From Candidatus Saccharimonadota bacterium (lineage in GTDB: Bacteria > Patescibacteriota > Saccharimonadia > Saccharimonadales > Saccharimonadaceae): a stretch of 64,000 nucleotides of DNA. A program made the translations under genes and the position numbers. Location of the stretch: assembly GCA_028289015.1 (NCBI GenBank), contig JAQGHC010000031.1, positions 1-64,000 of the forward strand, read 5' to 3'. Numbering within the stretch: the stretch's first letter is position 1; every line of letters starts with the position of its first letter. Positions 30,982-36,082 of this stretch are shown piece after piece. The notes beneath the pieces are model-generated. The model searched no databases, was not told where the DNA came from, and worked only from the letters and a program-made list of their open reading frames with translations.

Positions 30982-31225
30982 GCGCATTTGTGAATTAACT
31001 TACTACGTATCGGCAGTAGTCGAATCCACGGAAAAGTCTGATACATAAATGAGCCTACCGACAAATGTCGCACGGATACCGAAACAACTTTTTATCTAAT
31101 ATCAATTAATTCTAAGGTCGACAGTGTATCCCGTTCTATTTGCGAGAAGTAAGACAGAGTAAGGTAGACGCCTTTGCAGTAATGCAGACGGCAGGAGAAC
31201 GATTATTCGTAATCATCAATCCGCT
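30982..31225 (+). promoter_or_regulatory. Long (~240 nt) 5' leader of the LysM-CHAP gene; possible riboswitch
   Basis: Non-coding stretch between a consensus promoter and the hydrolase ORF with conserved-looking segments such as CGAATCCACGGAAAAG; class not established. Confidence 0.4.
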
Positions 31226-32498: not shown

Positions 32499-33791
<1,293 letters not shown>

Positions 33792-33806: not shown

Positions 33807-33835
33807 TTGACATTGATGCACTAATGTGATAATAT
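33807..33835 (+). promoter_or_regulatory. Sigma70-like promoter TTGACA-17-TAATAT
   Basis: TTGACA 33807-33812, 17-bp spacer, TAATAT 33830-33835, with no long ORF downstream for about 800 nt. Confidence 0.75.
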
Positions 33836-33841
33836 GTGAAA

Positions 33842-34612
33842 TACCATCAAATGCCCATTAGTTTTTTGATCGGTTCATTGACAAGTTGGATATTATTTTT
33901 GCTACAGCATTTTGTGTATTATTTTAGTGCTCAATATGCTGTAGCAAACCCCGAATACCGAAATTCGGACTAGGTTGACAGCATTTCATTTTGCGAAGTC
34001 GCGCCATGGGCCAAGTACCCACACGGTGGCTATGCCACTATTGCCCCATAGATTCGCACTCGAGAGCCATAACGATGGCATAATCTGAAAGAAGGTGATT
34101 TGAATGACCCGAGCATCCCCGATGCCCAGCATCAACCTCAAACTCAATCTGATGAACTGAATCGCCGGCGCCTCGAGCATCTGATATAAAGGAGCGAACA
34201 TAATGGTTCGATCTGGCTTTACTTAGTGGTTTTTTACTCCCATACTGGGTGAGTTCCGGTAGTTCAAAAAACAATACATCTGAAAGGATGTGTCATGTTG
34301 AGACAATTGTCCGTCTAGCACTCTCGCAAGGAGTGCGCCCCGGTTTTGGCCTGCCTTTCATTACGTAAGTGTGACAGGAGGCTTGTCCGCCTAGAGGTTG
34401 TGATCATCAGAATAGTCATTTCGTGGACAGATTCAGTGTCGCTTTCTATTCATCAGATCCAAGCGTTCTTACGCCCTCAGTGTTATGTATTATCATAACG
34501 GACATCCCCGAGAAGGGTAGCCACTGCAGCATTGCCGCGCTACCCTTCTCGGACCCCCCATTTATCCAACTTGTTCAATTTATACCACGCCAACTTCGTT
34601 TGGCGTGCTTTT
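33842..34612 (+). ncRNA. Candidate long structured non-coding RNA (or mini-ORF transcript)
   Basis: Bounded by a consensus promoter and a U-tract hairpin; contains a 13-bp perfect stem (33898-33910/33936-33948), a 14-bp perfect stem (34508-34521/34539-34552), GCACTC-tcgcaag-GAGTGC and others; no convincing long CDS. Confidence 0.5.
34587..34612 (+). terminator. Intrinsic terminator
   Basis: ACGCCAA-cttcgt-TTGGCGT-GCTTTT. Confidence 0.8.
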
Positions 34613-34645
34613 CATTGTCAAAAAATAGCTGCTATAATACAAGTA

Positions 34646-36082
34646 ATGGCAAAAACATTCTTTTTTTATGATCTCGAAACCAGTGGATTAAACCCTCGTG
34701 ATGATCGGATTATGCAGTTTGCGGGTATTCGTACTGATATGGATTTACAGCCGATCGGTGAGCCGTATAATGTTTTGGTAAAATTAAATGACGATACGCT
34801 GCCAACACCCGAAGCATTGATGGTGACGGGAATTACGCCGCAACAGACACAAGCCGACGGATACACCGAGTCGGAATTTGCGAAATTATTGATGGATGAG
34901 GTGTTTACCCCAGATACGATTGCAACTGGATTTAACAGCATACGATTTGACGATGAGTTCGTCAGACATTTATTGTGGCGAAATTTTTACGATCCCTATG
35001 AATGGGCTTGGAAAGATGGCCGTTCGCGCTGGGATCTGCTGGATGTAACGCGCATGACTCGTGCCTTGCGGCCAGAGGGTATTGAGTGGCCAGTTGTCGA
35101 TGGTAAGGCCGTTAACAAATTAGAACTCATCACCAAAATAAATGGCATTGATCATTTCAAGGCCCATGACGCGCTGAGTGATGTTGAAGCGCTCATTGCA
35201 GTTACAGGACTCATTAAAGCCCGCCAGCCGCAATTATTCGAATATTTATTAAAGATGCGTGACAAGAACGAACTTAAGAAGCTTATCAACCTGGATGATA
35301 AGCAACCGTTTGTCTATGTGAGTGGACGCTATGATGCTGAGTTTCATAAAGCGACGGTTGCATTCCCGTTGACCTCTGGCAAAAATGGTAATATTGTCGT
35401 GTATGACCTTCGTTATGATCCGACACCGTTTCTTGGTATGTCAGCAGACGAGCTAAAGAAAAAAATGTACGCCACCTGGGAAGAGCGTCAAGAAGACGGC
35501 TTTATGCAAATACCCGTCAAAGAGTTGCAGTACAATAAACTACCAGCTGTTGCGCCATTAGGGGTGCTGAACCAGGCTGAAGGGTGGCAAAAGGTACAAT
35601 TGGATATTGCGACAGTCGAAAAGAATCGCACTACTCTAATCGGAGCGCCACATTTTGCTGAAAATATTCGCAGCGTGTTCGAACAGCGAGCTGAATTTAA
35701 AAAGTCACCCGATCCAGAGGCACAATTGTATGACGGATTCGTACAAGATAGAGATCGTCTGCGAATCGAAACGGTTCGAAATGCCAGACCACGCGAACTG
35801 GCGGATTTTCATCCTGAATTTACCGACGAAAGATTAAACCCGTTACTTTTGCATTACAAAGCCCGTAACTTTCCACAAAGCTTAAGCGAGGATGAATCGC
35901 GAGCATGGGAGATGTGGCGAGCCGATCATATTAATGAACGCCTCCCTCAATTTATGAAGTCATTGCAATCGATTGCCGCAAAAGAGCAGGATGAGCAGAA
36001 ACAGTTCGTTCTGCAAGAATTGCAGCTATGGGCCGAAAGTATTATTCCAAGCGATATGTCAGACCAGGATAGCGAAAACTAG
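34646..36082 (+). CDS. sbcB: Exodeoxyribonuclease I
   Basis: FFFYDLETSGLNPRDDRIMQFAGIRTDMDL, TGFNSIRFDDEFVRHLLWRNFYDPYEWAWKDGRSRWDLLDVTRMTRALRPEGIEWP, KAHDALSDVEALIAV. Start at ATG 34646, 7 nt after TATAAT, rather than the ORF-track 34532. Confidence 0.95.
   Translation: MAKTFFFYDLETSGLNPRDDRIMQFAGIRTDMDLQPIGEPYNVLVKLNDDTLPTPEALMVTGITPQQTQADGYTESEFAKLLMDEVFTPDTIATGFNSIRFDDEFVRHLLWRNFYDPYEWAWKDGRSRWDLLDVTRMTRALRPEGIEWPVVDGKAVNKLELITKINGIDHFKAHDALSDVEALIAVTGLIKARQPQLFEYLLKMRDKNELKKLINLDDKQPFVYVSGRYDAEFHKATVAFPLTSGKNGNIVVYDLRYDPTPFLGMSADELKKKMYATWEERQEDGFMQIPVKELQYNKLPAVAPLGVLNQAEGWQKVQLDIATVEKNRTTLIGAPHFAENIRSVFEQRAEFKKSPDPEAQLYDGFVQDRDRLRIETVRNARPRELADFHPEFTDERLNPLLLHYKARNFPQSLSEDESRAWEMWRADHINERLPQFMKSLQSIAAKEQDEQKQFVLQELQLWAESIIPSDMSDQDSEN

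Follow-up and report, generated by a model that had tools for sequence, protein, structure and literature searches.

The type I toxin mRNAs of the hok family are very stable messengers with small ORFs, in which the 3′ end pairs to the 5′ region. In tmRNA the ends are paired and a short ORF lies within a structured RNA. OLE, ROOL, GOLLD and HEARO are several hundred nucleotides long and have an elaborate fold and a closing stem; to our knowledge none of them carries a set of ORFs led by Shine-Dalgarno (SD) sites. Hammerhead ribozymes occur in phages and mobile elements. That an RNA of a bacterial symbiont can reach its host is seen with the SsrA RNA excreted by Vibrio fischeri (PMC7665748). We compare with these systems a unit located between obg and the exonuclease I gene (exoI) of a Saccharibacterium, and its relatives in other genomes of the order.

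The transcription unit between obg and exoI

In the window, by which we mean the whole 64,000-nt stretch of DNA analysed, obg ends at 33791 and exoI starts at 34646, leaving a gap of 854 nt. A first-pass annotation had placed a large structured non-coding RNA of unknown class in this gap. Its description of the transcription signals was accurate. All features of the unit given below are on the plus strand. A sigma-70-type promoter with perfect spacing, TTGACA-17-TAATAT with an extended -10 (TG before the -10), is found at 33807..33835. At the other end an intrinsic terminator (34586..34612), consisting of an 8-bp stem (34586-34607) and a T-run, stands ahead of a separate second -10, TATAAT, which ends at 34638 and belongs to the exonuclease gene itself. 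No strong antisense promoter was noted among the transcription signals of the unit.

The folding energy of the RNA is -259.6 kcal/mol compared with -206.0 ± 6.2 kcal/mol for shuffled sequences (z = -8.7). A 5′ leader hairpin, ACCATCAA ... TTGATcGGT (33843..33874), is present in the MFE fold. It is followed by a conserved (T)ACATTGA-like linker (33875..33881), defined in alignment A2 where its T and A columns are near-invariant, which leads to an end-closing helix and overlaps the first bases of that helix. Here the 5′ arm GACAAGTTGGATA (33880..33892) pairs over 13 bp with the 3′ arm TATCCAACTTGTT (34563..34575); the arms are 670 nt apart and the whole RNA is closed by this pairing. This most important stem was absent from the dense set listed in the first-pass annotation, although the stems that were listed are indeed there. 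An inverted repeat at 33898/33925 (24 nt, 83%) forms a long hairpin beside the 5′ arm (33898..33948), a perfect 14-bp repeat at 34508/34539 forms a hairpin beside the 3′ arm (34508..34552), and GCACTC at 34318-34323 pairs with GAGTGC at 34331-34336. Its promoter, strong fold, end helix and terminator show this to be a genuine transcription unit.

There is good support for a large structured RNA that falls outside the described classes. None of 4227 Rfam families, including OLE, ROOL, GOLLD, SRP, 6S and riboswitches, exceeded its gathering threshold in the window unit, and matches under permissive settings were at chance level. Rfam covariance models likewise gave no known family over threshold in 14 relatives, and only tRNAs in 15 further copies. 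The absence of RNase P RNA, tmRNA and SRP RNA from the region, previously judged from their conserved cores, was borne out by covariance-model searches: neither a match to RNase P RNA (RF00010) nor its conserved P4 core was found, and the tRNA-like domain of tmRNA (RF00023) is absent according to both ARAGORN and Rfam. A hok-like type I toxin mRNA was rejected, as the peptides, read by eye, are not hydrophobic as a rule. A retron RNA was also rejected, since the neighbours of the window copy are obg and exonuclease I and no reverse transcriptase was seen near the copies when ORFs were read by eye. In the whole genome G000 (93.6% complete), RNase P RNA (RF00010) and tmRNA were both without a match above threshold, while the models detected both in control genomes; either both are divergent, or their genes are in the part of the genome that is missing. 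Elsewhere in the window, a lysM-TM7 RNA (RF03005, 112 bits) is located at 31053-31197, upstream of a LysM/CHAP-like gene; this RNA and the relatives of exonuclease I described next mark the genome as a Saccharibacterium (TM7).

Relatives, further copies and a hammerhead subclass

Relatives were obtained as the upstream regions of exoI from searches with exonuclease I (ExoI) in many genomes. The closest ExoI relatives are mostly in Saccharibacteria records, and no ExoI relative was found in viral contigs. In many genomes obg and exoI are nearly gapless, including the congener G002 (93 nt), whereas in others 350-900 nt are inserted between them with the same architecture as in the window. The order of parts is promoter, 5′ hairpin, ACATTGA-like linker, end helix of 12-19 bp, long hairpin, interior, GC-rich hairpin, 3′ arm and terminator. 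Promoters equivalent to that at 33807-33835 are found upstream of most relatives. The pairing of the leader hairpin is kept despite altered sequence in G003, L181, L182 and others; most relatives also have a long hairpin of unrelated sequence at the position matching 33898-33948 and a GC-rich hairpin at the place corresponding to 34508-34552. The end arms too vary in sequence while their pairing is kept (GACAAGTTGGATA/TATCCAACTTGTT, TAGACGAGAAGTA/TACTTCTCGTCTA, CTTGCTAGAAGACTGA/TCAGTCTTCTAGCAAG). MAFFT misaligns the hairpin of the 5′ leader, so that RNAalifold predicted zero pairs on its alignment; a sequence-only model, R1, was used instead. In many elements the motif ACAACTGAATAG / ACAACTCAATAG recurs in the 3′ portion, ahead of the final hairpin.

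Using an element finder that combines end helix, flanking hairpins and T-run, we detected the architecture in 37 of 116 non-redundant Saccharibacteria ExoI-upstream regions and in 0 of 116 shuffled ones. Reverse complements gave 17 matches, a control that is uninformative because helices survive reverse complementation, so that the shuffle control is the only one that counts. In this run and in the likelihood test described below, L224 was given a wrong end helix and some ORFs a wrong start.

The sequence model of the 5′ part also matches away from obg-exoI, and most of the better matches have an end helix where expected. A genome may have several copies, and the order has such copies in three or more of its families. 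The end helix of L259 measures 17 bp, and obg and exoI of that genome are only 67 nt apart; L260 is an end-clamped copy in another family, a single genome adds the three copies L261, L262 and L266, and L264 is a further copy with an end helix away from obg-exoI; later matches added L314, L316, L323 and L327. At obg-exoI itself, one genome has two tandem copies (L139). Single-gene units are found flanked by housekeeping genes (obg-exoI; the typA region). Two studies of Saccharibacteria gene expression and essential genes did not mention such an RNA in the terms searched.

The window copy keeps its terminator, while in some members a type III hammerhead ribozyme (RF00008) replaces it. In L316 and L327 the ribozyme is located just 3′ of the 3′ arm of the end helix, ∼90 nt further on in L327, with respective scores of 38.1 bits (E 2.2e-5) and 42.2 bits (E 1.5e-6) against a gathering score of 48.5 bits; hammerheads in three genomes exceed that score, and the one in L264 was recognized by core pattern only. 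The core CUGAUGAG...CGAAA and three stems of a type III hammerhead are found in this subclass only (L316, L327, L264 and others). Across the order, 46 of 295 genomes have hammerheads at E ≤ 1e-4, with a maximum of eight in one genome, and the loci looked at lie among ordinary genes. At 10 of 30 hammerhead loci an end helix with a score of at least 12 ends no more than 8 nt from the ribozyme, compared with 4 of 237 control positions. Apparently, then, the ribozyme takes over the terminator's role as maker of the 3′ end. We know of no description of a hammerhead tied to an end-clamped cargo mRNA, and in openly licensed papers no link was found between hammerhead ribozymes and Saccharibacteria. 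Among hammerhead loci L363-L392 not all adjoin an end helix, and some flank mobile-element-like genes (L387, a gene pair). L316 also holds, within its end-clamped unit, a weak match to RAGATH-10 RNA (1602-1684; 28.8 bits, threshold 41.2).

Short ORFs, cargo and codon usage

The first-pass annotation had found no plausible long coding sequence in the unit. The longest ORFs are without a Pfam match, among them the minus-strand ORF 34038-34274 that had been considered as a possible protein family, but three short SD-led ORFs had been missed. Across 42 interiors, 78 SD-led short ORFs were counted on the sense strand versus 37 on the reverse strand and 27 ± 5 in shuffles, about three times the shuffle frequency.

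The ORFs are of three kinds. ORF A of the window (34203..34226; SD AAAGGAG, stop TAG) encodes MVRSGFT. Its counterparts in relatives are 7-9 aa long and end in SGFT, SGFI or similar (MDWPSGFT, MHYSGFT, MYTSGFI, MLYWSGFI). Such an ending occurs in 11 of 37 elements and in 0 on the reverse strands, and its Ser codons are synonymous (TCN or AGT), which demonstrates conservation of the SGFT ending at the level of the predicted peptide. ORF B (34295..34318; SD AAAGGAT, stop TAG) encodes MLRQLSV, and the GCACTC/GAGTGC hairpin (34318-34336) is directly after its stop; kind B is typically ∼5 aa and M(K/R)R-like, with MKRxR/MRRHM-type peptides in relatives, several of which have a hairpin directly 3′. 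ORF C (34104..34160; SD GAAGGTGAT, stop TGA), encoding MTRASPMPSINLKLNLMN, is a small example of the third kind, a longer cargo ORF of 18-213 aa present in many copies. G or C ends 11 of its 15 non-Met codons (p 0.02), a signal that is weak alone, and ORF C showed no conservation in G003. Taken by itself, the window copy offers weak evidence for coding, and weak evidence for the codon dialect described below; the family carries the case.

The cargo of other members is diverse. It includes 30-47-aa Ser/Thr-rich peptides, products with apparent signal peptides by eye (L139b/L211, G041, L198, L261), a protein with an LPRTG (LPXTG-like) anchor (L260) and a membrane protein (L323). Searches of Pfam, NCBIfam, plasmids and phages found almost no homologues, the exception being the L264 cargo, for which the top match among plasmids is from Rhodococcus (36.5%, E 6e-18). 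L264, L316 and L323 have the identical end arm TGACAAGCAGACA and different cargo proteins, so the end-clamped scaffold looks like a carrier with exchangeable cargo.

In a dozen cargo ORFs from unrelated genomes GC3 is 0.92-1.00, compared with 0.40-0.53 for ExoI of the same genomes. The GC3 of 578 neighbouring genes is 0.455, with a 99th percentile of 0.66, and that of the highly expressed rpsL averages 0.45. GC at the first and second codon positions of the cargo is much less extreme than at the third; the bias is therefore one of codon choice and not of base composition alone. A likelihood test assigned a high-GC3 cargo ORF to 16 of 46 elements, while many members, including most of the window's copy, contain micro-ORFs only and no high-GC signature. 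TGA is the stop of 24 of 30 cargo ORFs (taken by rule) versus 6 of 149 ExoI and Obg genes (p 7e-19), and pooled cargo codon usage correlates with that of four Rhodococcus plasmid genes at rho 0.88 versus 0.34 with the epibionts' own genes; these stop and codon-usage counts are conservative because L127 and L259 are represented in the set by out-of-frame ORFs. High GC3 was also seen outside the clamp. A leaderless lipoprotein gene that starts almost at its promoter (L261:173-673, minus strand; GC3 0.80) adjoins an end-clamped unit, and ORFs with GC3 of 0.89 and 0.83 occur among otherwise normal genes at L114:3827-4264 and L157:2515-2847 (minus strand).

The homologous cargos L150 and L152 differ in the amino acid at 9 of 42 codons, with the frame kept and gaps of whole codons. 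Their three third-position changes are all G<->C. The ExoI genes of these genomes differ at 118 of 474 third positions, and only 6 of these changes are G<->C. This comparison suggests that selection maintains cargo GC3 even as the peptide changes fast, L150/L152 being the only close homologous cargo pair and the sole basis of the argument for maintenance.

Interpretation and comparison with known RNAs

As a member of the family, the window unit has a promoter, 5′ hairpin, end helix in the 12-19 bp range, flanking hairpins, a 3′ end made by a terminator (in some members a ribozyme) and SD-led ORFs. The first-pass annotation was right that the RNA is structured and of an undescribed class, as judged from Rfam, fold and family, but not in calling it non-coding, given the SD-led ORF excess, the SGFT/SGFI endings and the foreign codon usage; on this evidence the term highly structured, end-clamped mRNA probably fits it better. 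Comparison of the sequences establishes the architecture, the SD-led ORFs, the conservation of SGFT and the cargo's foreign choice of codons and stops.

The unit would give rise to a ∼770-nt messenger-like RNA, in which the 13-bp helix, flanked by strong hairpins, would hold the 5′ and 3′ ends together. Ends clamped in this way would be hard for nucleases to attack, and the clamp may thereby confer stability. The interior has SD sites and very short ORFs, and in other members cargo ORFs of 30-213 aa sit in the same scaffold. The dialect suggests a high-GC (actinobacterial) host as the intended place of translation of this cargo, a host that might be reached via the epibionts' unusual essential type IV secretion apparatus. 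The known hosts of Saccharibacteria are Actinobacteria, and the essential apparatus has neither a recognizable coupling protein nor a relaxase, so its substrate is open (PMC10633639). We consider it about an even chance that these are stable end-clamped mRNAs for variable peptides and proteins, possibly delivered to and translated in such a host. The full proposal, that Saccharibacteria deliver nuclease-resistant end-clamped mRNAs with cargo in the dialect of the actinobacterial host as bacterium-to-bacterium mRNA effectors, we put forward tentatively. The signal peptides and the LPXTG anchor in some cargo speak against translation in the host, since export by the epibiont itself would account for them as well.

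The main rival is that the same clamped mRNA is translated by the Saccharibacterium itself, as a long-lived message for secreted or surface peptides that evolve fast and whose genes came from high-GC hosts and are repeatedly replaced; we regard this as possible though doubtful. We had entertained the idea that the genomes are without release factor 2 (RF2), leaving TGA-ended cargo untranslatable at home, but RF2 is present in nearly all of them. TGA therefore works at home, and the dialect is no proof that the cargo is untranslatable there. Home translation would also agree with the signal peptides and LPXTG-like anchor of several cargos, with the Rhodococcus match of the L264 cargo and with the high GC3 of the unclamped lipoprotein gene beside L261. 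It needs, however, repeated import of a dozen unrelated ORFs, always inside one scaffold type. The divergence of L150 and L152 in peptide but not in GC3 favours maintenance over recent import, and the bacteria's own highly expressed genes are not high in GC3.

It is improbable that the units are part of a mobile element or phage shuttling between Actinobacteria and Saccharibacteria, with codon usage from the element's other host and a clamp or ribozyme that aids spread. Several copies occur per genome, some of them clustered, and both the occurrence of hammerheads in phages and mobile elements and the gene pair at L387 are in keeping with it. Against this, housekeeping genes flank the single-gene units, none of the units was seen to include an integrase, transposase or phage gene, and phage and plasmid matches are absent for most of the cargo searched. 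Very improbable is a purely non-coding structural RNA with incidental short ORFs and with start sites that are incidental or ribosome-binding decoys: the structure does lie mostly outside the ORFs and those of the window copy are only 7-18 aa and poorly conserved, but the SD-ORF excess is confined to the sense strand, SGFT is kept with synonymous Ser codons, cargo GC3 is specific to codon phase and the L150/L152 frame survives with whole-codon gaps.

If delivery is true, an epibiont would reprogram its bacterial host by messenger RNA, not by protein or DNA, and the RNAs would be a candidate substrate for the essential and puzzling type IV secretion apparatus of Saccharibacteria. We know of no bacterial precedent for effector delivery by mRNA. 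Even if translated at home, they would represent an end-clamped type of multi-ORF mRNA that is new as a class and combines conserved micro-peptides with hypervariable cargo, spread across an order of hard-to-study bacteria and absent from Rfam.

Among the described systems, the hok family shares with the end-clamped RNAs a small-ORF mRNA with long-distance 5′-3′ pairing. In the end-clamped RNAs, however, the pairing is a clamp of 12-19 bp with all ORFs inside it, there are several ORFs per RNA, no antisense RNA was noticed, and the cargo has foreign codon usage and is not a short hydrophobic toxin. OLE, ROOL, GOLLD and HEARO are alike in size, elaborate fold and closing stem, but their covariance models matched none of the end-clamped units searched. 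Paired ends and an internal short ORF are common to tmRNA and the end-clamped RNAs; the latter have no tRNA-like domain and contain several ORFs with SD sites. The SsrA RNA of Vibrio fischeri is carried by vesicles into an animal host and acts as a non-coding RNA, whereas for the end-clamped RNAs we propose a bacterial host and translation.
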